The translations under genes and the position numbers were made by a program. A stretch of DNA of 64,000 bases from Nitrospirota bacterium (lineage in GTDB: Bacteria; Nitrospirota; Nitrospiria; Nitrospirales; Nitrospiraceae), in contig JBFMAX010000001.1 in the NCBI GenBank assembly GCA_040755395.1, positions 62,001-126,000 of the forward strand, given 5' to 3'. Every line of letters begins with the position of its first letter. The first letter of the stretch is position 1. The notes under the pieces are model-generated. The model saw only the letters and a program-made list of their open reading frames with translations. It was not told the origin of the DNA and did no database searches. Below, in pieces: positions 34,108 through 64,000 of this stretch.

Positions 34108-34117
34108 CCGATGCATC

Positions 34118-34205
34118 ATAGCTAGGGGAGCCACTCGGCTGAGAGTCCGCCTGCCGGACGACCCTCAGAACCTGACCTGGATAATACCAGCGTAGGGAAG
34201 CGGAG
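34118..34205 (+). ncRNA. TPP riboswitch (THI element)
   Basis: The aptamer core is clear: AGGGGAGCC..CGGCTGAGA near 34124-34146, then GACCCTCAGAACCTGACCTGG (split at 34158-34178) and ATACCAGCGTAGGGAAGC near 34184. These are the conserved CTGAGA and pyrophosphate-helix motifs. A strong terminator follows at 34230-34258, so TPP binding should cause early termination before thiC. A stem paired to both could not be resolved by eye. Confidence 0.95.
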
Positions 34206-34229
34206 AGAGCGTTGATGTCCGGCGACTCA

Positions 34230-51013: not shown

Positions 51014-51463
51014 ATGGCGTCGCATAAAAACACGCACAAGAATATAAAAGAAATGCAGGTGCTCAAGGAGCACCTGGCCAAACATCAGCTCAAGCTGACT
51101 CGGCAGCGGGAGCTGATTCTCAGCGTGTTCCTCAAAAAGGAGCACATCACCGCCGAGGAGATGTACCATCTGCTGGCGAAGAAAGACCCCCACCTCGGCC
51201 TCGCGACCATCTATCGGACCCTCAACCTCTTTTGCGACGCCGGCCTGGCGCAGGCCCGTCACTTCGGGTCGCAGACGCAGTACGACAACGTCTCACACAA
51301 GGGGCACCACGACCACCTGATCTGCACGGGCTGCGGGAAGATCGTAGAGTTTGAGAACTGCGAAATCGAACGCCTGCAGGAAGAAGTGGCCACCAAGAAC
51401 GGCTTCGTCATTCAGACCCACAAGCTCGAACTCTATGGCCTCTGTTCGAGCTGCCGCCATTGA
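51014..51463 (+). CDS. fur: Fur-family transcriptional regulator
   Basis: 149 aa. Winged helix (LKLTRQRELILSVFLKK..HITAEEMYHLLAKKDPHLGLATIYRTLNLF, about 26-76) and the metal-binding half: HHDHLICTGCGKIVEFEN (about 96-113) and the C-terminal CSSC zinc ligands. The length matches Fur rather than Zur. Neighbouring ferric-iron importer, TonB and receptor genes favour iron sensing, although a PerR role cannot be excluded. ATG at 51014. Confidence 0.93.
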   Translation: MASHKNTHKNIKEMQVLKEHLAKHQLKLTRQRELILSVFLKKEHITAEEMYHLLAKKDPHLGLATIYRTLNLFCDAGLAQARHFGSQTQYDNVSHKGHHDHLICTGCGKIVEFENCEIERLQEEVATKNGFVIQTHKLELYGLCSSCRH

Positions 51464-51528
51464 CCCGCCCAATTGCCGGTATCGTTCGGGATACGAATCA
51501 ATTTCATTCACCGGGAGCGCGTTTCGAC

Positions 51529-52611
51529 ATGAAAATGCACGAAGGAGTTCGTCGGCCTGATCGCCGCGAGGTCCGGCCTGAGACCGTCTTTCCTTACAGA
51601 GGCATGTGGCCGATTCTGATCCTGGCATGCCTGGTTTCGATCGCCGGCCAGGCGCCGTCCTCTCCCGCCGCGGATCGGCTGGTCGTCTACTCCGGGCGGG
51701 CCGAGCGCCTGATCAAGCCGGTTCTCGATGCCTTTCAAGCCAGGACCGGCATCCAGGTGGATCTGCTGTCGTCCGGCACGACTGAACTGGTCAACCGTCT
51801 GCAGGTGGAAGGCGAACGGACCCAGGCGGACGTCCTGATCACCAACGACGCCGGTAGCCTGGAACGGGCGCGGGAACTGGGGTTGTTGCGGCCCCTCTCC
51901 ATGCCGGAGACCGAGCGGGCGATCCCGTCGCAGTTCCGCGCGCCGGACAACAGTTGGGTGGGATTGTCGGGACGCTTCTGGATCGTGGTCTATAACACGA
52001 CGCGCGTCAAACCCGGAGACATCACGTCCATCCTGGACCTCGCCGCCCCTCGCTGGAAGGAGAAGATCGCGATTCCGAATTCGGGCAGCGAATACCTGCA
52101 GGCCGGCGTGTCGGTCATCAAGGCGACCTACGGGGATGAAAAGACCAAGCGGTTCCTCCAAGGGCTGAAAGCCAATGCCGGCACCCAGGTGTATCAGAAA
52201 AGCTCGCAGATCGTGGAAGCCGTCGCGAAGGGAGAGGCGGATGTCGGGCTGGTGAACCACTACTACGTCTATCGGCACCTCGCGACCCAGCCCGGAGCCC
52301 CCATTGCCTTGCTCATGCCGGATCAGTACGAAGGGGGGATGGGCGCCATCATGAACGTCGCAGGCGTCGGGGTCGTGAGACACACCCGCCATCTCGACGG
52401 CGCGAAACGACTGGTCGAGTTCCTCGTCTCCCAAGCCGGCCAGAAAATGTTCGCCGATCTCAACAAGGAATACCCGCTGCATCCCGAGGTCAAAGCGGAC
52501 CCCGCTTTGCTCGAACGCAAGACCTTCCGTGCGGCGACGGTGCCGTTGGCCCGGTTGGCGGAACTGCGGGAGCCGACCGTGACCCTCATCGAGCAGGTGG
52601 GACTCCGCTGA
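51529..52611 (+). CDS. ferric-iron ABC transporter substrate-binding protein
   Basis: 360 aa from ATG 51529; ATG 51604 would give a shorter signal peptide (MWPILILACLVSIAGQAPSSPA). Mature part: LVVYSGRAERLIKPVLDAFQARTGI, GTTELVNRLQVEG, DVLITNDAGSLERA, AEVDVGLVNHYYVYR-type segments with paired tyrosines, typical of FbpA/FutA iron binders. It binds Fe3+ in the periplasm for the permease and ATPase that follow. The imperfect palindrome GAATCAATTTCATTC (51495-51509) just upstream may be a regulator site. Confidence 0.92.
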   Translation: MKMHEGVRRPDRREVRPETVFPYRGMWPILILACLVSIAGQAPSSPAADRLVVYSGRAERLIKPVLDAFQARTGIQVDLLSSGTTELVNRLQVEGERTQADVLITNDAGSLERARELGLLRPLSMPETERAIPSQFRAPDNSWVGLSGRFWIVVYNTTRVKPGDITSILDLAAPRWKEKIAIPNSGSEYLQAGVSVIKATYGDEKTKRFLQGLKANAGTQVYQKSSQIVEAVAKGEADVGLVNHYYVYRHLATQPGAPIALLMPDQYEGGMGAIMNVAGVGVVRHTRHLDGAKRLVEFLVSQAGQKMFADLNKEYPLHPEVKADPALLERKTFRAATVPLARLAELREPTVTLIEQVGLR

Positions 52612-52625
52612 CGGACCGGCACCGC

Positions 52626-54185
52626 ATGACCACGGCCTTTCGACATATCCCTTTCCCGCCGCTGCAGGTGTTTGCCGCTGCGACGGCCGGCCTCCTTACG
52701 CTGCCTCTGCTGTACATCGGATTTCTGGCCTTGTCCGCCGATCCGGCCGTCTGGGTCCGGTTGTGGGCCACGCGCATTCCCGAGTTGCTGATCAACACCG
52801 TGTCGCTGGCCGCCGGAGTTTCGCTGGCCACGTGTGTGCTCGGCGTCTCCTTCGCCTGGCTCGTGGTCCGATTCGACTTCCCCGGACGCCGCATCTGGGA
52901 ATGGGCGCTGGTGCTGCCCTTGGCCATGCCGACCTACGTGCTCGCGTACGTGTACACCTTCATCCTCGGTATGGGAGGTCCCTTCCCCCTCTTTCCGCCG
53001 CACAGCTTTGCCGGCGCGACGCTGGTCATGACTCTCGACACCTTTCCCTTCGTGTATCTCTTGAGCCGGGCGGCGTGGCTCAATCTGAACGTCTCGTTCG
53101 AAGAGGTCGCCCGGGCGTGCGGCGCCTCGCGCTTCGAGACTCTGTGGCGCGTCACGCTGCCGCTTCTGCGGCCGGCGATCGTTGCGGGCCTTGCCTTGGT
53201 GATTCTGTATGTCGTGTCGGACTTCGGCGCCGTATCGCTGCTGCGCTATCAGACGCTCACCTATGCGGTCTATCAGCAGATGACCGGCCGCTACGACCAC
53301 ACGGCCGCCGGTATCCTCAGCCTGCTCCTGGTCGTCATCGCGTTGGTGTTCCTGGTCGCGGAACGCTGGTTCCGCCGGAAAAGCCGGTTCTACCAGACGG
53401 CGGGCCGCTACCGGGCTCCCGAACGCAAACGCTGCGGACCGCTGGGCACGCTGTTCGCCACCGGCTATCTCGCGATCGTACTGGGCGCCGCCTTCTTGGT
53501 TCCGGCGGCGCTGCTCGTCCGGTGGAGCCTCTCCGCAATCGTGCAGGGCGCGGTGGACGGTCGTTTCGTCGGGTTCATCTGGAACAGCACGGTCCTCTCC
53601 GGAGGGACCGCGACCTGCGCCGTCGTGATCGGCATTCCCTTGGCCTACCTGGCCGCCCGGCATCCCTCGCGGTTCAACCTGGCCTGCCTCCAAGCCGCCT
53701 ATGCCGGATACGTGCTGCCGGGGCCGGTCGCCGCCTTGGCGCTGTTGGTACTGTTCTCCCATGTCGCGCCGTTCTGGTACGGCTCCATCGTCGTGCTGGT
53801 GGTCGCATACATCGTCCACTTTCTGCCGGCCGGTCTGCAATCGCTGGAGCCGGCCCTGCAGCAGGTGACGCCCAATTTGGAACAAGCGGCCCGGAGCCTG
53901 GGCCTGGGCATGCGGGAGACGCTGCAACGGGTGACGCTGCCCTTGGTGCGGAACGGGTTCATCGCGGCCTGGGTCTTGATGTTCCTGCATTGCATGAAGG
54001 AACTGCCGGCCACATTGCTGCTCCGGCCCGTCGGGTTTGACACGCTGGCGATCCGGGTGTGGCTAGAAGCCAGCGAGGAGTATTATCAACTGGCCGCCCC
54101 ATCGGCCCTCTTGATCGTGATGTTGACGCTGCCGGCGCTTATGTTGCTCGTCTCCAAGGATTGGCGGGCGACAAGAACACGGTGA
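52626..54185 (+). CDS. ferric-iron ABC transporter permease (FbpB type, double domain)
   Basis: 519 aa, about 12 helices in two BPD_transp_1 halves (about 50-250 and 300-510). Each half has an EAA loop: FEEVARACGASRFETLWRVTLPLL and LEQAARSLGLGMRETLQRVTLPLV. Fused permeases of this kind serve Fe3+ (FbpB/SfuB/HitB) and thiamin importers; the substrate-binding neighbour argues for iron. It starts 14 nt after the FbpA-like stop. Its stop codon falls in a family-B word. Confidence 0.93.
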   Translation: MTTAFRHIPFPPLQVFAAATAGLLTLPLLYIGFLALSADPAVWVRLWATRIPELLINTVSLAAGVSLATCVLGVSFAWLVVRFDFPGRRIWEWALVLPLAMPTYVLAYVYTFILGMGGPFPLFPPHSFAGATLVMTLDTFPFVYLLSRAAWLNLNVSFEEVARACGASRFETLWRVTLPLLRPAIVAGLALVILYVVSDFGAVSLLRYQTLTYAVYQQMTGRYDHTAAGILSLLLVVIALVFLVAERWFRRKSRFYQTAGRYRAPERKRCGPLGTLFATGYLAIVLGAAFLVPAALLVRWSLSAIVQGAVDGRFVGFIWNSTVLSGGTATCAVVIGIPLAYLAARHPSRFNLACLQAAYAGYVLPGPVAALALLVLFSHVAPFWYGSIVVLVVAYIVHFLPAGLQSLEPALQQVTPNLEQAARSLGLGMRETLQRVTLPLVRNGFIAAWVLMFLHCMKELPATLLLRPVGFDTLAIRVWLEASEEYYQLAAPSALLIVMLTLPALMLLVSKDWRATRTR

Positions 54186-54215
54186 TGCGTGACACGTGAA
54201 GCGTGACGCGGCGAA
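54183..54215. repeat. short family-B word repeat
   Basis: GTGATGCGTGACACGTGAAGCGTGAC: tandem GCGTGA words overlapping the permease stop and the region before the ATPase start. Confidence 0.5.
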
Positions 54216-54234
54216 AACACAATCCTCAACCACA

Positions 54235-55347
54235 ATGACGGGTTCTCAACGGCAGAGCCGACAATTGAAAAAGGCGCCAGGAGAACAGCCGATCGGGTCG
54301 GCGGCGCATGAAAACATCCTCGAGCTGCGCAAGGTGTCATGCGCCTACCAGGCCGGGCGCCCGGCGATCTCGGAGATTTCGTTTTCGGCGTGCGAGGGCG
54401 AGATTCTCTGCCTGTTGGGACCGTCCGGGTGCGGCAAGACGACGATTCTCCGCGTCATCGCCGGATTCGAACCGGTCTCCGCGGGCGAAGTCTGGCTCTC
54501 GGGGCGGCTCGTCTCGGCCGTCGGGTTGACCGTTCCCGCGGAGCAACGGCGCGTCGGCATGGTTTTCCAGGAATATGCGCTCTTTCCGCACCTGCGCGTA
54601 GCCGACAACATCGCGTTCGGCCTCCGGCGCTTGCCGTGCGATCAACGAAAGGCCCGGGTGCAAGCCATGCTGGAGATGACCGGACTCACCGGCCTGGAGA
54701 AACGGTTCCCTCACGAACTATCTGGCGGCCAACAGCAGCGGGTGGCGCTGGCCCGCGCCCTGGCGCAGAAGCCGGTGATCCTCCTGCTCGACGAGCCGTT
54801 CAGCAACCTTGACCCCGACATGACCGGCAAGATGCGCCAGGACCTCCATGACCTCCTGAGACGGACCAGGACGACGACGATCCTGGTCACACACGATCAT
54901 GACGAAGCCTTCACGATGGCGGATCGAATCGCCGTGCTGAACCAGGGCCGGCTGGAGCAAGTGGACACGCCGGAAGCGATCTACCACACGCCTGCGACGC
55001 CGTTCGTGGCGGACTTCGTAGGCCAGGCGGATTTCATCCCCGGTATCGCGCAGGACGGCATCGTGCAGACCGAAATCGGCGAATTCCCGAACCAGGTCGG
55101 CTACGAAAGCGGAACCAAGGTCGTCGTCATGATCCGTCCGGACGACGTGCGTATCGTGCCCGCCAAGGATGCGACCGCCCGCATCCGGTCACGACAGTTC
55201 CGCGGATCGGAAAATCTCTACGCGATCGGCCTGCCGTCCGGCCAAATCATTCATAGCAGCGAAGCCTCGACGCACGTCTATCCCGTCGGCACACCCGTTG
55301 AACTCCAGGTGGCGGCAACACACATCGTCTTGTTTCCGGCACGCTGA
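54235..55347 (+). CDS. ferric-iron ABC transporter ATPase (FbpC type)
   Basis: 370 aa from ATG 54235. A GTG at 54196 lies in repeat words and is less likely. Walker [10 protein letters not shown] (about 62-70), signature [15 protein letters not shown], Walker [14 protein letters not shown] and H-loop [10 protein letters not shown], then a C-terminal TOBE-type regulatory domain (about 250-370: [14 protein letters not shown]). It powers the importer. Third gene of the fbpABC-like operon. Confidence 0.93.
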
Positions 55348-55409: not shown

Positions 55410-55450
55410 TTGACAGATTTTCTTCCGCCGTGATATTGATAACGCCTCTC
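55410..55450 (+). promoter_or_regulatory. promoter and Fur-box-like site before exbB
   Basis: TTGACA (55410-55415) with TATTGA at 18-nt spacing (55434-55439). GATATTGATAACGCCTCTC (55432-55450) matches the 19-bp Fur consensus at 13 positions by my count and overlaps the -10, so bound Fur would block polymerase. Confidence 0.6.
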
Positions 55451-55512: not shown

Positions 55513-55938
55513 ATGGACGTCTTGAAAGAAACGGTCGACTACGGGGTGATCGGGCTTCTGTTGGTTCTCAGCGTCTGGTGCGTCGCTGTGGCCGTCGAGC
55601 GATGGCTGTTTTATCGCCGGGTGGACGTCTCGCAATTCCCGAATCGCCAGGTGTTTGAGATTGCGCTGACCAAGCGGCTGGTCATCATCGGCACGGTCGC
55701 CGCCAACGCGCCGTATATCGGGCTGCTGGGCACCGTGCTGGGCATCATGCTGACGTTTTATACGATGGGCACATCCGGCACCATGGCCGTGAACACGATC
55801 ATGATCGGCCTCAGTCTGGCGCTGAAGGCCACGGCGGTCGGCTTGCTCGTCGCCATCCCCTGCGTTGTGATGAACAACGTGCTGCGGCGCCGCGTCACCG
55901 AACTGCTCACGCTCCACAAGGTGCAACATGGATCGTGA
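55513..55938 (+). CDS. exbB: ExbB-type proton channel protein (short form)
   Basis: 141 aa. Three helices: GVIGLLLVLSVWCVAVAVERWLFY, a middle block APYIGLLGTVLGIMLTFYTMG and LALKATAVGLLVAIPCVVMNNVL. These match the MotA/TolQ/ExbB core. It is about 100 residues shorter than E. coli ExbB, like the ExbB2 forms of Helicobacter and relatives. With ExbD it uses the proton gradient to energise TonB. It overlaps exbD by 11 nt. Confidence 0.9.
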   Translation: MDVLKETVDYGVIGLLLVLSVWCVAVAVERWLFYRRVDVSQFPNRQVFEIALTKRLVIIGTVAANAPYIGLLGTVLGIMLTFYTMGTSGTMAVNTIMIGLSLALKATAVGLLVAIPCVVMNNVLRRRVTELLTLHKVQHGS

Positions 55939-56302
55939 GATGGACCAAATCAACGTCATCCCGTTGGTGGACGTGATGCTGGTCCTGCTCGTCATCGTTC
56001 TGACCACGGCGACGTTCATCACGACCGGGCAAATACCCGTCGATTTGGCCAAAGCCAAGGAAGCGGGCGACCGCAGGGACGTCCCGTTGGTGATCACCCT
56101 GACGGCGGAAGGGAAGCTCTACCTGAACGACCGCCCCGTTCCCGAGGATGGACTGAGGATCGTTTTGACTCCCCATCCCAGGGAATCCCTGGTCGTCGTC
56201 CGAGCCGATCGCGTGACGATGCTGGAACGATTCGTTCAGGTGGTGGACGAGGTGCGCGGGCTCGGATTCCAGCAAGTGAGTCTGGAGGTCGTCAGGTCGT
56301 GA
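55928..56302 (+). CDS. exbD: ExbD/TolR-family protein
   Basis: 124 aa. One N-terminal helix (INVIPLVDVMLVLLVIVLTTATFI) with the essential membrane aspartate in PLVDVMLVLL, then the periplasmic domain (VPLVITLTAEGKLYLNDRPV..VVVRADRVTMLERFVQVVDEVRGLGF). Works with ExbB and TonB. Its stop overlaps the tonB GTG by 4 nt, so the three genes are translationally coupled. Confidence 0.93.
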   Translation: MDREMDQINVIPLVDVMLVLLVIVLTTATFITTGQIPVDLAKAKEAGDRRDVPLVITLTAEGKLYLNDRPVPEDGLRIVLTPHPRESLVVVRADRVTMLERFVQVVDEVRGLGFQQVSLEVVRS

Positions 56303-57405
56303 CCATGCCGGCTGCCGGATCGAATCGCGGTCTCAATTACCGGATCCAGGGCTGGGCGGTGTCGGCCGTCACCCACGCGCTGGCTGTGGGAGCGGCTTTT
56401 GCGCTGACGTCTAACTTGCACTTGCCCCCGCAACCCGAACCGTTCAAGTGGGAAGTCTCCTTGGTGCAGCCTCCCGCGCCCCAGGTCGTCGAGCCGCCGC
56501 AGCCAGACCCGACCCCGCCGAAGCCGAAACGAACGGAGCAGCCGGTGGTCGAGACAAAACCGGTGGTCCAAACGGTCCAGACCGTGACGCATGTCGTCCG
56601 GCAGGAGATCCGCGAAGTCACGCCCCAGGTCCGAACCGCCGTCCGGCCGGCGCCGCAGGTCGTCACCCGCGCGATGGAGTCCGTCAACCGGACGGCGGAG
56701 ACCGAGGTACCGGCCGTCCAGACCGTTGTCGCGACCGAAGCGCGGCAGGTCATCACGGAGCCGGCTGCAGTGGTGCAGGAGGAGGCTCCGGTGGTTCGGG
56801 AGGAGGTTCCGGCGACTGTTCAGCATGTCGTGCAGGAGGCGCCTTCCCCCGTCGTAGCTGCAACTCCGGCTCCCGTGTCGCGTCAGGCCATCAAACGTGA
56901 CCCGGTTGCGGCGATCCAAACGGCAGCGATTTCGGAAAACCCGGTCGAGCCGATCCAGACAGGCACAATCGAAAGTGCGTCTGTCCCCGTCGAGACCGCC
57001 GCGATTCAGGAACGCCAGATCGTTAGCGAGCCCGTTCCTGCAACGACGGCGGCGGCAGTGCCGATCCAGCAGGCCTCGATCCGCGAATTGCCGGTGCAAC
57101 CGTTGCCGGCCGCCAAAGCGGACTATAGTTGGCTGGCCGAGGCGTTGTGGAACCGCGTCGAACAACTCAAACGCTACCCCCATCTCGCCAGAATGAACCG
57201 GTGGGAAGGCATGGTGGTGTTGCAGGCCGTCATTCGGCACGATGGACAGCTCGTCGATCTGAAGGTGGCGGAAAGCTCCGGCCATGCGGTGCTCGATCAG
57301 GACGCCATGGAGGTCATGAGAAAGGCCTGCCCGCTCCATCTGAAACACCCCCTGGGCAAGCCGCAGGTCGTGGTACAAGTGCCGATCAGCTATAAGCTGC
57401 AATAG
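56299..57405 (+). CDS. tonB: TonB energy transducer
   Basis: 368 aa. N-terminal anchor (GWAVSAVTHALAVGAAFALT), a very long Pro/Val/Glu/Gln-rich spacer (about 40-270: PPQPDPTPPKPKRTEQPVVETKPVV and similar), and a C-terminal TonB domain (WLAEALWNRVEQLKRYPHLARMNRWEGMVVLQAVIRHDGQL as separate strands). It ends QVVVQVPISYKLQ. It transmits force from ExbBD to outer-membrane receptors such as the gene at 58116. GTG start overlaps exbD; ATG 56305 is an alternative. Confidence 0.95.
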   Translation: MTMPAAGSNRGLNYRIQGWAVSAVTHALAVGAAFALTSNLHLPPQPEPFKWEVSLVQPPAPQVVEPPQPDPTPPKPKRTEQPVVETKPVVQTVQTVTHVVRQEIREVTPQVRTAVRPAPQVVTRAMESVNRTAETEVPAVQTVVATEARQVITEPAAVVQEEAPVVREEVPATVQHVVQEAPSPVVAATPAPVSRQAIKRDPVAAIQTAAISENPVEPIQTGTIESASVPVETAAIQERQIVSEPVPATTAAAVPIQQASIRELPVQPLPAAKADYSWLAEALWNRVEQLKRYPHLARMNRWEGMVVLQAVIRHDGQLVDLKVAESSGHAVLDQDAMEVMRKACPLHLKHPLGKPQVVVQVPISYKLQ

Positions 57406-58115: not shown

Positions 58116-60467
58116 ATGGGTGGGCAATTGAGAGAGTTGATATTGAGAATAAGAACTAAAACCAAAATCGTTGCAATGCTCTATGCTTGCCTCATCGCAT
58201 GGGCGTTTTTACTCCTGCCGCTTGGCGCGCCGGCAAGCGCTGAGGAACCTTCGGGCCAGACCGCTGGTTCTCAAGAGACAACCGGCCAAGGGCCGGAAGC
58301 GCCGGCGCCCGAACAGAAGCCGCTAAGAATCCCCCTCACCGAGGTGATCGGGACCGCCCCAGAGGCGCTGGAACACATTCCCGGCTCAGGCCGTGTGGTG
58401 ACACAGGAAAGCCTGTGGAAGAACCATCGCCTCACGATCAATGAAGCATTGCGCGAAGTTCCCGGCGTCAACGTGCGCGATGAGGAAGGGCTGGGCATCA
58501 GGCCGAACATTGGGATTCGAGGTCTCGACCCCACCCGAAGCCGAAAAATCCATATCATGGAAGACGGCGTCCCGATCATGCTGATGCCCTACGGCGACCC
58601 GTCGTCCTATTACTTCCCGCCGGTCTTCCGCTTCGACCGGATCGAGGTCTTGAAAGGCAGTGGGCAACTGCTTTTCGGTCCGCAGAACATCGGCGGCGTG
58701 ATGAACTTGATCACCCGTATGCCGCCGTTGACTCCGACCGGCAACTTTGAGTTCCGTGGCGGCAATCTGAACTACTTCAACACCCATTTCGATTATGGAG
58801 GAACCTGGGGCAAGAGCGGCTACCTGGTGGACTACACCCACTATCAGAGCGATACGCCTCGCTTTACCAACATTCGGGCCAAGGTGGATGACTTCACCTT
58901 CAAAACCGTTCAAGAACTCACGGCTCGTACCACCATTTTGGCGAAGTTCAATTACTACCGCGAAGATTCCGGTATCGGTTATCAGGGGTTCACTGAAGCC
59001 GACTGGGGAGCACGCGGCGATGATCGCCAGACGCCGTTCACGCATGATCATTTCGATTTCCGCCGCGTGGGCGTGCACGTCGCGGTCCAGCACATGTTCA
59101 ACGCGGACCTGAGCGTGACGACCAATTTCTTCGGTCATTACATCGCGCGCGACTGGTCGCGGCAGAATCAACTGGCTCTCAGAGCCGATGGCACCACAAC
59201 TACTCTCACCGGTAACAACCTGCCGGCTAACACCCTTACCGTTGTACCGGATCCACAGCGTCGCTTCACCAACGAACGAGAGTATTGGGTCTACGGCGTC
59301 GAACCTCGTTTCCACCTGACCCATCGATTGCTGGGGATCAAGAGCGAGGCCGATTTTGGCGCCAGATTCATGCACGAGCAGTCCGATCGCAAGCAGTTCC
59401 TGAATCAGATCACAGGAATCGGAGGCTCATCCACCTGCTTGGCAAGTCCGGCAGCCGCAACGTGCTTAGGCGAAAACAACATTCGGAAAACCGACGCGTA
59501 TGCGCTGTTTTTCCAGAACCGGTTTTTCGTCACCGATCAGATCACTGTGACGCCGGGCTTCCGGGTCGAACACGTGAACTACGAGCAATTCAACAAACTG
59601 CCCACCACCGGAGAAACGTTCGGCAAGACTGCCATCACAGAAGTCCTGCCGGGGATCGGCGCGACCTATTCGCCGATCAAGAATTACACCTTCTTTGCCG
59701 GCTTCCACCGCGGGTTCGCGCCGCCGCAGGTCTCAGACGCGATCACGGGAACCGGCGCGGTGGTCGATTTGGACGCCGAGTTGAGCTGGAACTATGAACT
59801 GGGTATGCGAAGCACCCCGGTCCAGTGGCTCGGGTATGAACTGACCTTTTTCCAGATGGACTTCCAGAACCAGATCGTGTCGCAGTCCGTCGCGGGAGGA
59901 GTCGGCGCGACCTTGACCAATGCCGGACGGACTCGTCATCGCGGCATCGAATTCGCCGTGAAGACCGATCTCTTGGATGCGGTGACCGGACAGAACAGGA
60001 ACGAAGACATTATCTTCGATCTGAACTACACCTGGGTCGCCGATGCGGAGTTCAGAGGAACGCGGAATAGCTCCATCACCGGCGCTGCCCTTCTCCCCGG
60101 CGAGGCTGCGGTGTTCAACGTAAGCGGGAACCGTCTTCCGTATGCGCCCAAGCACATGCTCACGGCCGGACTGGGCTACATCAATCGCCAGATCGGGTTC
60201 GACGGTCGAGTGGAAACCCAGTGCATCAGCGACATGTTCGGAGACGACCGGAACACGCACGTCGCGACGCCGAACGGCCTGCGCGGCATCGTTCGCGGCT
60301 GGTGCGTGTTGAACGCGGCGGCCAACCAGTACGTGAAGCCGATCAACACCACGTTCTTCGTCACCGGGAAAAACCTGCTGGATCACCTGTACATGGTGGA
60401 TCGGACCCGCGGCATCTATCCGGGCCTGCCGTTGATGGTCCAGGCTGGTGCCCGATGGACGTTCTGA
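58116..60467 (+). CDS. TonB-dependent outer-membrane receptor (FecA-like)
   Basis: 783 aa. Long signal peptide (to ASAEEP near 45), a plug domain (IPLTEVIGTAPEALEHIPGSGRVVTQESL, DALREVPGVNVRDEEGLGIRPNIGIRGLDPTRSRK, FDRIEVLKGSGQLLFGPQNIGGVMNLITR as blocks) and a 22-stranded barrel ending GARWTF, the typical aromatic C-terminus. Closest in style to FecA-type ferric citrate or siderophore receptors. The TonB box is probably near PLRIPLTEVIGT. AGGAGGAGG precedes ATG. Confidence 0.94.
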   Translation: MGGQLRELILRIRTKTKIVAMLYACLIAWAFLLLPLGAPASAEEPSGQTAGSQETTGQGPEAPAPEQKPLRIPLTEVIGTAPEALEHIPGSGRVVTQESLWKNHRLTINEALREVPGVNVRDEEGLGIRPNIGIRGLDPTRSRKIHIMEDGVPIMLMPYGDPSSYYFPPVFRFDRIEVLKGSGQLLFGPQNIGGVMNLITRMPPLTPTGNFEFRGGNLNYFNTHFDYGGTWGKSGYLVDYTHYQSDTPRFTNIRAKVDDFTFKTVQELTARTTILAKFNYYREDSGIGYQGFTEADWGARGDDRQTPFTHDHFDFRRVGVHVAVQHMFNADLSVTTNFFGHYIARDWSRQNQLALRADGTTTTLTGNNLPANTLTVVPDPQRRFTNEREYWVYGVEPRFHLTHRLLGIKSEADFGARFMHEQSDRKQFLNQITGIGGSSTCLASPAAATCLGENNIRKTDAYALFFQNRFFVTDQITVTPGFRVEHVNYEQFNKLPTTGETFGKTAITEVLPGIGATYSPIKNYTFFAGFHRGFAPPQVSDAITGTGAVVDLDAELSWNYELGMRSTPVQWLGYELTFFQMDFQNQIVSQSVAGGVGATLTNAGRTRHRGIEFAVKTDLLDAVTGQNRNEDIIFDLNYTWVADAEFRGTRNSSITGAALLPGEAAVFNVSGNRLPYAPKHMLTAGLGYINRQIGFDGRVETQCISDMFGDDRNTHVATPNGLRGIVRGWCVLNAAANQYVKPINTTFFVTGKNLLDHLYMVDRTRGIYPGLPLMVQAGARWTF

Positions 60468-60893: not shown

Positions 60894-61745
60894 ATGAACA
60901 GCACCGGGCCTGCTCTGTTGAATCATCATCCCGATCTCGCCGCCGTCGTGGATGAGCTTCACGCCCTCGATCATGTGCGGCTGCCGGCTCGATCCTTGTC
61001 GGACGTTCGCGCCGTTCAGATACGGCGGATCGTCCGACGAATCGAGAGCCTCTTGCCGCATCACGGAGGCCACGGGGAGCGGACCGCCTGCTACGCTCTT
61101 GCGTTCGGAGAAGCCCTCGGGCTTTCCGACGACGAATTACTCCACCTCCGCTTCGCCGCATTGCTCCACGATATCGGCTTGCTGACGGTCCCGGCCGGCA
61201 TCCTGTCGGAGACGAGACCGCTTACCGGCGATGAGTACGCAGCGCTGCAGAGCCATCCGCGGGCCGCCGCCGAACTGCTGGAGCCGATCCGTTTCCTGCG
61301 CCGGGCCGCGCTTCTGATCGCCCACCACCATGAACGCTGGGACGGGTTCGGCTATCCCTACGGCCTGCGAGGTGAGTTCATTCCGCTCGGCTCCCGCATC
61401 CTGGCGGTCGCGGACACGTTCGACGCGCTGGCCGCCCGTAGGCCGGCGGCTGCCAAGGTGTTCGAGCACGAAACTGCATTGGCGCAACTGCAAGCCGTGG
61501 CCGGCTCGCAACTCGATCCTGATCTTGTCGCGACCTTCGTCCGGCTGGCGCCGGCACTGAGGCCTGACAGCTCTCCCGGGTGGGGTTGTGCCCCCCACCC
61601 ATTCGGGCGGGGCGCCTCTCTTCCTCCTGGGCCCCCCGCCCGCCCCTTTTCTGGAAAGACCGCACGGCCCGCCGGCGAACGTTCGAAAGCGGGCAGACCG
61701 GAGCGCTCGACGACGACCATGAATGAGAGCCCGCCGAGGCCATGA
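60894..61745 (+). CDS. HD-GYP domain protein (putative cyclic-di-GMP phosphodiesterase)
   Basis: 283 aa. HGERTACYALAFGEALGL near 59, LLHDIGLLTVPAGIL (HD motif, about 89-103), SHPRAAAELLEPI, AHHHERWDGFGYPYGLRGEFIPLGSRILAVADTFDAL (about 141-180): these are the HD-GYP blocks, with GYP preserved in GFGYP. No receiver domain is attached. The C-terminal 55 residues are Pro/Arg-rich. The ATGA overlap at 61742 couples it to the AraC-type gene. Confidence 0.88.
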   Translation: MNSTGPALLNHHPDLAAVVDELHALDHVRLPARSLSDVRAVQIRRIVRRIESLLPHHGGHGERTACYALAFGEALGLSDDELLHLRFAALLHDIGLLTVPAGILSETRPLTGDEYAALQSHPRAAAELLEPIRFLRRAALLIAHHHERWDGFGYPYGLRGEFIPLGSRILAVADTFDALAARRPAAAKVFEHETALAQLQAVAGSQLDPDLVATFVRLAPALRPDSSPGWGCAPHPFGRGASLPPGPPARPFSGKTARPAGERSKAGRPERSTTTMNESPPRP

Positions 61746-62296
61746 ACCACCGTCCACGGAGGGATCCTATGCGCCGCGCCGACTCGACAGGACAGTCTGC
61801 ATGTGACCCGGCCTGCAGAACGAACACTCGCGCCCCCCTGAGCTCATCTCGACTCTGCGACGATCCGTTCTCGATTCAAGAACATCCCCCCGCGTTGCAG
61901 GCGCCTCCGGACGTCGCGCAGCGCGTGCAGGAGTTCATCAGGAACAACCTGCACGAGGGCCTGACCCTCAAGGATCTGGCGCGGTTTCTGGGCTACTCGG
62001 ACAAGTACTGCTCCGATCTCTTCAAGGCCCTCATCGGCATTCCCTTCTCCCACTATCTGAAGCGTCTTCGCCTTGAGCGGGCCGTCGGCCTGCTCGCGGA
62101 GTCGAATGCGACGCTGTCCTGCATCGCCGAGGCCCTCGGCTTCAGCGATCAGTTCGCCTTCAGTCATTTCTTCAAAAACGCCGTCGGCTGCTCCCCTCAA
62201 CGGTTCAGATCGCAATGCCCCTCACGCCGACTTCGCCCGAACCTTTCGCGCTCCGCATGGGCGAGCCGCCGCTCCAAGCCGCATAGTAAAGGTTGA
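61742..62296 (+). CDS. AraC-family transcriptional regulator
   Basis: 184 aa. A cysteine-containing N-terminal segment without a known sensor domain is followed by two HTH units (about 60-150): VQEFIRNNLHEGLTLKDLARFLGYSDKYCSDLFK and LLAESNATLSCIAEALGFSDQFAFSHFFKNAVGCSPQRFR. The basic tail is short. AraC-type regulators beside siderophore receptors (PchR, YbtA) are common, so the iron genes around it are plausible targets. ATG overlaps the HD-GYP stop. Confidence 0.9.
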   Translation: MNHRPRRDPMRRADSTGQSACDPACRTNTRAPLSSSRLCDDPFSIQEHPPALQAPPDVAQRVQEFIRNNLHEGLTLKDLARFLGYSDKYCSDLFKALIGIPFSHYLKRLRLERAVGLLAESNATLSCIAEALGFSDQFAFSHFFKNAVGCSPQRFRSQCPSRRLRPNLSRSAWASRRSKPHSKG

Positions 62297-62376
62297 AGTT
62301 CGGCTGAGCGCCCCCCGGCTGTACGGCCTCTCATGTGGCCGCCGGACGGCGCTTCCGGCAATCTGGAAAATGAACA

Positions 62377-62424
62377 TGGTCAACGCTTCCGCGTCGAGAT
62401 ATATTGATATTGAAATGCAATCTC
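62377..62424 (+). promoter_or_regulatory. promoter and Fur-box-like site before the chelatase-like gene
   Basis: TGGTCA (62377-62382), 17-nt spacer, TATATT (62400-62405). GATATTGAAATGCAATCTC (62406-62424) is a near-palindrome (GATATTG/CAATCTC arms) matching the Fur consensus at 13 of 19 positions by my count. It lies on the predicted transcription start. An in-frame ATG at 62415 falls inside the site and so is unlikely to be the start codon. Confidence 0.65.
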
Positions 62425-62453
62425 AACAACTGCCTGAGCTACCGGAGTTGCCG

Positions 62454-64000
62454 GTGCGAATGTGTCTCAGGAACAAGAGGATCACAGGATGGCCGGCGGC
62501 GGCCCTACCAGCCCGGCTACTCGCCGTGCTTGCGGCGCTGCTCCTGTTCACATTCGCGCCGACACCCGAGCCGGCGGCGGCCGGATCGACGGTCGGCTTT
62601 CTCGTCGTCGCCCCTGACCGAGGATTTTTAGGCAACCAGGAAATCCGCGCTGTGTTCGACGAGTTCGCGCAACACTATGCGCCGGCGGCGCTGGCCTGGG
62701 TCGGGCGGGATTACAACGGGATGGGGAGCGAATACTCCGACTATCTCAGCCGGGCGCTGGCCGACCTTGAGCGCGGCGGCGCGACGGAGATCGTGGCGAT
62801 TCCGCTCTTTGTCTCCGCCTCGGACCCCGTTTTGCAGAAGGTCGTGGCCCATCTGCCCGCCTATGCACGAACCGGAACCATTCGGTGGGCCGAGCCGATG
62901 GTCTCGAGTCACCTCATCCGCCAAATCCTGTTGGATCGCGCGATGGCAGCGAGCCGTGACCCGGAGCATGAACGGCTCCTGCTGGTCGGATTCGGCGCGA
63001 CCGACGAAGCCGGAGAGGCGGCCATGCGCCGCGACCTGGAACGGTACCTGGCCTACATTACGCAGTACCTCCGTTTTCGAGAAACCAGGGCCGTCCTCTA
63101 CTACGACCGCTCCGCACCGGACGCCGAACGGAACAACAAGGCGGCGGATCAGGTGATTGTCGAAACCGCCGCCAAGAAGGGACGGACGCTGCTGGTCCTG
63201 GCTACGATCGGCCCGAAATTTGATCAGACGATGGCGCTGACGCACTGGTTCGGCGACAAGCTGCGCGACTGGAACATCGCCTATGTCGCGGAAGAACTCC
63301 TGCCCCACCCCAACGTGCTGCTGTGGCTGAAGAAGACCGCCAACGCCTTTCTGCCGGCGTCTCCGGCAGAAATCGGCGTCGTGATCATGCCGCACGGCGC
63401 CACCCAACCGTGGAACGACGCCGTGGAGCGCGCGATCGCGCCGCTGCGCCCCCGTTACCGGATCCAGATGGCCTATGGGATGGGCGATCCTGCCGTGATT
63501 CAGCAGGCCGTCGAGCGATTGGAGCGGCAAGGGAGCCGGCGCATCGTGTTCGTGCGCATGTACGCCCTCGCTCACCATCTGAAACACCGCATCGAATACC
63601 TGCTCGGCCTCTCCGATTCACCGGAGCCCGAGGGCCGACACAGTGGACACGATCGGGAAACGACCCCTCCGGCGCAAATTCGAAGCGCGGCGCTCTTCGC
63701 CACGTTCGGCGGATACGAGGAAGACCCGGGCATCGCCGAGGCGCTCCACGAGCGGATTCAGGAAGTCAGTCGCGACCCGTCGCAGGAGACCGTGATCCTC
63801 GTCGCGCACGGCGACAAGCGCGATGAGGACAACGCGCACTGGCTCTCGGTCATGCAGGCCAACATCGAGCGGCTGAAGCGCGATCCCCACTGCGCCAAGC
63901 TGAGAGCGATTGAGGCGGCCACGGTCCGCGAGGACTGGCCGGCGCTTCGGGAGCGCGCCGTCGGCGACATCAGGAGCCTGATCGAAGCCCACGCGAAAAC
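62454..64000 (+). CDS. exported multi-domain CbiX-type chelatase-like protein (partial)
   Basis: At least 515 aa, open to the right edge. GTG 62454 follows GGAG at 6 nt. An N-terminal hydrophobic segment (RLLAVLAALLLFTFAPTPEPAAA) is a probable signal peptide. Repeated chelatase-like domains follow: VGFLVVAPDRG (His lost), IGVVIMPHGATQPWND (about 307-322) and TVILVAHGDKRDEDN (about 445-459). The AHG/PHG histidine with nearby acidic residues is the metal site of CbiX/SirB. These normally insert Co or Fe into sirohydrochlorin in the cytoplasm, so export is unusual. The Fur-box-like site suggests iron control. Confidence 0.75.
   Translation, partial: MRMCLRNKRITGWPAAALPARLLAVLAALLLFTFAPTPEPAAAGSTVGFLVVAPDRGFLGNQEIRAVFDEFAQHYAPAALAWVGRDYNGMGSEYSDYLSRALADLERGGATEIVAIPLFVSASDPVLQKVVAHLPAYARTGTIRWAEPMVSSHLIRQILLDRAMAASRDPEHERLLLVGFGATDEAGEAAMRRDLERYLAYITQYLRFRETRAVLYYDRSAPDAERNNKAADQVIVETAAKKGRTLLVLATIGPKFDQTMALTHWFGDKLRDWNIAYVAEELLPHPNVLLWLKKTANAFLPASPAEIGVVIMPHGATQPWNDAVERAIAPLRPRYRIQMAYGMGDPAVIQQAVERLERQGSRRIVFVRMYALAHHLKHRIEYLLGLSDSPEPEGRHSGHDRETTPPAQIRSAALFATFGGYEEDPGIAEALHERIQEVSRDPSQETVILVAHGDKRDEDNAHWLSVMQANIERLKRDPHCAKLRAIEAATVREDWPALRERAVGDIRSLIEAHAK

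Follow-up and report, generated by a model that had tools for sequence, protein, structure and literature searches.

A gene at the downstream end of the DNA stretch analysed here encodes a protein that consists of two tandem, fused, two-lobed class II chelatases. The stretch, termed the window, is 64,000 nucleotides long and corresponds to G000:C1:62001-126000 of a 4.1 Mb Nitrospirota genome, whose relatives, as judged by the chelatase-fold gene, are mostly Nitrospira. The presence of exported multi-unit proteins of the chelatase fold in Fur/TonB iron loci across phyla is well supported.

Fold and four-unit architecture

The window protein runs off the window, and a full-length orthologue, L054, was therefore modelled in its place with AlphaFold2 from an alignment of 39 sequences. 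L054 is 60% identical to the window protein, which is high enough for the fold to be carried over. The pLDDT is 92.6 for the whole model and 90.4 for the C-terminal half folded alone. Structure comparisons with Foldseek and VIA-align reveal the class II chelatase fold in both halves. The best fold match is SirB (Z 20.3 for the whole model and 18.1 for the C-terminal half); the corresponding values are about 19 and 15.5 for ferrochelatase, 17.9 and 15.6 for periplasmic CbiK, and 16.5 and 14.9 for FetB. The top Foldseek match of the C-terminal half is DR2241 (PDB 2jh3). On the basis of the orthologue's model, the window protein is a predicted member of the class II chelatase fold superfamily (SirB/CbiX/CbiK/HemH).

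At the sequence level, the CbiX similarity claimed in a first-pass annotation is borne out, below the cut-off in the window protein itself and above it in orthologues. Pfam CbiX (PF01903) scores 17.9 bits vs a cut-off of 22 when the window protein is scanned minus its last 66 residues, and 27 to 35 bits in orthologues. The NCBIfam models CfbA (21.6 bits) and PRK00923 (24.5 bits) are below their cut-offs of 120. Pfam CbiK is absent among the matches of the window protein, and in distant relatives it reaches 21.4 and 19.9 bits vs a cut-off of 26.2. FetB was not recovered by phmmer at E 10 from the window protein.

The secondary structure of the L054 model shows four similar units. By hhalign, the matching pairs are units 1 and 3 (97%, E 1e-11) and units 2 and 4 (98%, E 2e-14), and neighbouring units align poorly with each other in profile comparison; therefore one two-lobed chelatase has been duplicated. 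Unit 2 also aligns with the second lobe of a short exported Nitrospira CbiX (hhalign, 96%). The earlier reading of "at least three" chelatase-like units was correct as to a multi-unit protein, but the count is four, arranged as two bilobal chelatases.

Gene extent and leader sequence

The remainder of the gene past 64000 was retrieved. The reading frame is open to the window end and continues to L002:4200, which is position 64199 in window numbering and thus outside the window. ATG 62461 is probably the start codon, since relatives have short leaders; the alternative starts at 62370 and 62376 were set aside on the same grounds. Residue numbers (Asp83, His342, etc.; protein P0001) nevertheless count from ATG 62370.

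The hydrophobic core of the leader, LLAVLAALLLFTF, has a mean hydropathy of 2.87 vs 0.82 in the genome's own cytoplasmic CbiX. A similar hydrophobic leader is present in 43 relatives, 40 of which exceed 1.8, the hydropathy threshold used for a signal-peptide-like leader. The N-terminus is thus signal-peptide-like, as had been claimed, and the window protein is predicted from hydropathy to be exported.

Conserved residues

Conservation was counted in the alignment of 39 sequences, which come from several phyla. Unit 1 has Asp83-Arg84-Gly85 at the position of the first-strand His in 39/39. Unit 2 is also without a conserved first-strand His and displays a PHPN motif, with His313 in 34 of the 39 sequences; its third strand is followed by a Met that does not vary. 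In the second chelatase, the first-strand His is present in every sequence, as His342 in unit 3 and His480 in unit 4. Unit 3 has in addition an invariant Asp373 and an Arg396 found in 38/39, and unit 4 has an invariant Glu521-Asp522-Trp523 and a nearly invariant Arg553, the latter situated beyond the window. The first-pass annotation had two histidines kept and one lost. The two retained residues are indeed invariant, but two units, not one, have lost the first-strand His.

Alignment to the short CbiX places His403 at the third-strand catalytic position of unit 3. Unit 3 of the window protein therefore has both members of the within-one-lobe His pair (first and third strand), but this pair is absent as a family feature: the third-strand position is His in only 13 of the 39 relatives and otherwise Gln or Ser. 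Both catalytic histidines of Salmonella CbiK are in one lobe, and this is also the case in published bilobal cobaltochelatases (PMC7689651); the His pattern of the family thus differs from that of the known enzymes.

The iron locus and candidate Fur boxes

Features of the locus are listed in Table 1. The neighbours named in the first reading (TonB, a FecA-like receptor, HD and AraC genes) are correct by Pfam and receptor models. To these are added the upstream genes for Fur, an FbpABC-like transporter, ExbB and ExbD, and the downstream ferritin-like genes. The transporter is presumably specific for iron. Ferritin-like genes adjoin the chelatase-fold gene in several relatives too, and an AraC-type gene comes first in operons of relatives as well. 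PepSY and MacAB genes are absent from the window's own locus. For metal-reducing delta-proteobacteria, gene clusters under Fur control had already been predicted to include HD-domain and AraC genes (PMC545781). The TonB receptor of the window scores 173.8 bits with TIGR01783 and 169 with the FecA model vs 75 bits with haem receptors, all below the model cut-offs, and its ligand can only be guessed from such scores. Elsewhere in the window, at 34114-34215 (+), there is a TPP riboswitch aptamer (70.1 bits).

Table 1. Features of the window locus and of the chelatase-fold gene (window coordinates unless marked L002)
Feature	Position	Strand	Remarks
Fur-family regulator	51014..51460	+	Pfam FUR 123.6 bits
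FbpA/FutA-like periplasmic binding protein	51460..52611	+	Pfam SBP_bac_6; frame opens at TTG; gene probably begins further inside
FbpB-like permease	52626..54185	+	Pfam BPD_transp_1, two stretches
FbpC-like ATPase	54196..55347	+	Pfam ABC_tran and TOBE_2
Fur-box-like site upstream of exbB	55432..55450	+	Same GATATTGA half-site
exbB and exbD	55513..56302	+	
tonB	56299..57405	+	Pfam TonB_C 54.5 bits
Small exported protein, cluster C24	57523..57990	+	No known Pfam family; recurs beside tonB/exbBD in relatives' loci
TonB-dependent receptor, FecA/siderophore type	58116..60467	+	TIGR01783 173.8 bits, FecA model 169
Similar half-site at start of TonB receptor gene	58139..58157	+	
HD-domain protein, HD-GYP type	60894..61745	+	Pfam HD_5 131.9 bits
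AraC-type regulator	61742..62296	+	Pfam HTH_18 76 bits
Candidate Fur box GATATTGAAATGCAATCTC	62406..62424	+	13/19 consensus matches; begins 55 bp upstream of ATG 62461
Exported (predicted) tandem class II chelatase-like protein	62461..64000, stop ending at 64199 beyond window	+	579 aa from ATG 62461
Predicted signal peptide MCLRNKR... LLAVLAALLLFTF ...PAAA	62461..62582	+	From hydropathy and comparison with 43 relatives' leaders
Unit 1 (first chelatase, lobe A)	62589..62963	+	Boundaries approximate
Unit 2 (first chelatase, lobe B)	62964..63359	+	Boundaries approximate
Unit 3 (second chelatase, lobe A)	63360..63773	+	Boundaries approximate
Unit 4 (second chelatase, lobe B), portion inside window	63774..64000	+	Continues beyond window
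Two adjacent ferritin-like (bacterioferritin-type) genes	L002:5617-6093, L002:6137-6610	-	Downstream of chelatase gene

A Fur-box-like palindrome had been proposed for the promoter. The site is present and is the joint best Fur-box match in the 64 kb, but it is weak (local shuffle P about 0.05); given a start at ATG 62461, it lies upstream of the gene and not inside it. The half-site GATATTGA is found three times in the window, in each case at iron genes, vs 0.73 expected. Among the loci of relatives, 19 of 42 have Fur boxes matching 14 to 18 of 19 positions at most 1.6 kb upstream, vs about 5 expected from the site density over the same loci, which are related, so that the counts are not independent. 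Judged from these motifs, the family is likely to be Fur-controlled; for the window gene the motif is suggestive of such control.

Distribution and loci of relatives

Of 296 genomes sampled within the phylum, 22 have a match to the gene. A scan with an alignment query, with one genome per species, yielded 44 loci; a single-sequence scan of genome contigs with P0001 gave no relatives. These loci are from metagenome bins for the most part, and organism names are as given in the records. Most are from Nitrospira. Other carriers are Nitrospina, gammaproteobacterial bins, Nitrosomonas, Methyloversatilis, Balneola, acidobacterial bins and Candidatus Scalindua. A further carrier is a plasmid of Candidatus Manganitrophus (CP114562.1; locus L097), where the long gene is split over several frames and a TonB receptor-like frame is 2.9 kb away; this copy may be broken or contain sequencing errors. 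Two short matches, L011 and L012 (G038:C3 and G022:C1), have one internal stop and are possible gene remnants.

A TonB receptor is located at most 4 kb away in 22 of the 31 loci with enough flanking sequence, the related loci not being independent. The window's genome has 11 TonB receptor genes in 4.1 Mb, and thus the probability of chance proximity is small. Several Nitrospira operons comprise AraC, MacA, an ABC ATPase, two FtsX-like permeases, TonB, the chelatase-fold gene, the receptor, a short exported CbiX and a PepSY-type protein (AraC, CbiX, PepSY and receptor assigned by Pfam; MacA, ABC and FtsX by eye). In Nitrospira, a few genes separate the long gene from that of the short exported CbiX-like protein (L017:17303-18373, L047:16028-16966, L048:1962-2891 and others). 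This short protein scores 58 bits with Pfam in L047, and its first lobe carries the two catalytic histidines. It was not found in the window's genome, in a search of the kind whose empty result shows little.

Other metal-related genes of the genome

The only strong FecCD permease of the genome (L108; G000:C2:141500-150500) is situated between two cobalamin riboswitches (62.6 and 81.7 bits), with neighbours read by eye as BtuF, BtuD and BtuB; the riboswitches bracket BtuF/BtuC/BtuD-like and BtuB-like genes. The permease is therefore most likely the B12 importer. A second PF01032 match is weak. For the remaining receptors no FecCD-type siderophore or haem importer was found in a search for this one family. 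Provided that the genome has no siderophore importer of another kind, such as an MFS type, iron from these receptors would have to be released in the periplasm, ahead of its passage across the inner membrane. The only Pfam CbiX match over the cut-off in the genome (L109:3071-3592; G000:C6) is an ordinary, leaderless cytoplasmic CbiX/SirB-like protein. The motif FRAP..NPNL is found in four linked receptors in Proteobacteria and also in the genome's BtuB-like receptor. It is thus not haem-specific and was dropped as a clue to a haem ligand.

Possible functions

Our leading proposal, held tentatively and at slightly less than even confidence, is that the two fused bilobal class II chelatases constitute a periplasmic iron-release or iron-acceptor protein for ferric complexes imported via TonB. 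In iron shortage, Fur would de-repress the chelatase-fold gene, and the FecA-like receptor would import a ferric complex to the periplasm. A scaffold or a ligand-docking cleft may be provided by the degenerate N-terminal half, and the C-terminal cleft would take or hold the iron or its complex. Each lobe is predicted to contribute to this cleft one invariant His and a near-invariant Arg, the latter at the third strand or past it, together with acidic residues that follow the second strand. Freed iron would then pass to the neighbouring FbpABC-like transporter, and the PepSY membrane protein beside the gene in some Nitrospira is a possible reductase. Iron is the presumed metal, and as candidate ligands siderophore- or citrate-type complexes are ranked slightly above haem. 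A broader proposal, which we consider speculative and on balance doubtful, is that undescribed but widespread periplasmic double chelatases strip iron from siderophores or haem at a predicted symmetric site, with one first-strand His per lobe, and serve chemolithotrophs that have no FecCD-type siderophore importer (nitrite and ammonia oxidisers, anammox bacteria and relatives of the Mn-oxidiser).

Metal or tetrapyrrole handling outside the cytoplasm, as put forward in the first-pass annotation, may reasonably be inferred; its tetrapyrrole part is less well founded, as the second catalytic His is not conserved and the receptor is FecA/siderophore-like. Perhaps the protein is a periplasmic tetrapyrrole chelatase acting in reverse, or a metal exchanger, that takes the iron out of imported haem or exchanges metals, much as has been proposed for FetB of P. 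gingivalis. Tetrapyrrole chelatases have this fold, and the structural matches include periplasmic CbiK and FetB; porphyrin metal exchange has been reported for FetB (PMC13402209). The His342/His403 pair of window unit 3, the FRAP..NPNL motif of the four linked proteobacterial receptors, and the neighbouring short exported Nitrospira paralogue, a clear CbiX at 58 bits, point the same way. However, the minority of relatives with a third-strand His, the presence of FRAP..NPNL in a BtuB-like receptor and the higher score of the window receptor as a siderophore/FecA type make this explanation rather unlikely. It is improbable that the protein is a substrate-binding or sensing component for a metal or metallophore, without chelatase chemistry, that presents ligand to, for example, the receptor, the TonB system or a regulator. 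Such a role would suit the N-terminal half, which has no catalytic histidines yet is conserved (Asp83-Arg84-Gly85 and the invariant Met of unit 2), the periplasmic binding proteins among the lower-ranking Foldseek matches of the C-terminal half, and the adjoining AraC regulator; but invariance of two His and several acidic C-terminal residues over deep divergence goes beyond the needs of docking. A periplasmic chelatase directed at cobalt or nickel, for corrinoids or related compounds, is suggested by the sequence likeness to CbiX/CfbA, the cobalt and nickel sirohydrochlorin chelatases. This role is very unlikely because the gene sits among iron genes and many relatives have Fur boxes; moreover, the genome's B12 import genes are elsewhere, under cobalamin riboswitches, and a separate cytoplasmic CbiX is present.

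Relation to known systems

The first-pass statement that no periplasmic CbiX-like system has been described was too strong, as CbiK (2xvx) and FetB (9b86), both extracytoplasmic, are among the structural matches. CbiK-P and FetB, which come closest as precedents, each consist of one extracytoplasmic bilobal unit, and here this arrangement is duplicated. FetB (IhtB; PDB 9b86) of Porphyromonas gingivalis is located outside the cytoplasm. It shares the class II chelatase fold with the window protein, but has one two-lobed unit in place of two, is about 11-12% identical and has another His pattern; the window family, moreover, is found in other phyla. CbiK-P, the periplasmic cobaltochelatase of Desulfovibrio vulgaris (PDB 2xvx/2xvz), is also a class II chelatase, but is a single bilobal protein of the CbiK family, whereas the second half of the window protein has one first-strand His per lobe. 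SirB/CbiX (B. subtilis SirB, 5zt7) provides the best fold match and a weak CbiX profile match; these enzymes, however, are cytoplasmic and biosynthetic and consist of one bilobal unit, of which a single lobe holds the His pair. DR2241 of Deinococcus radiodurans (PDB 2jh3) is similarly a multi-domain protein with chelatase-like domains, but export, TonB linkage and duplication are features of the window family that were not seen here for DR2241.

In the pyoverdine system (FpvGHJKCDEF/PvdRT-OpmQ), iron is freed in the periplasm by a reductase, periplasmic binding proteins and an exporter, and the siderophore is recycled (PMC6954188). PepSY and MacAB-type genes beside the chelatase-fold gene in some Nitrospira resemble this machinery; the window locus, however, has neither, and the abstract of that paper names no chelatase-fold component. 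HmuS of Bacteroidota is likewise a chelatase-related protein in a TonB haem-uptake operon, but is a class I (CobN-like) chelatase of unrelated fold (PMC13227078). Among open-licence papers on CbiX with Nitrospira, TonB, PepSY or siderophores, no description of the double-chelatase family was found.

Nitrite and ammonia oxidisers have a high demand for iron and haem, and little is known of how they release iron from imported chelates. The conserved, iron-linked chelatase-fold protein, with its predicted export, is a concrete candidate for freeing iron from such chelates. The family also represents a chelatase fold that has been duplicated and, it appears, re-used outside the cytoplasm across several phyla.
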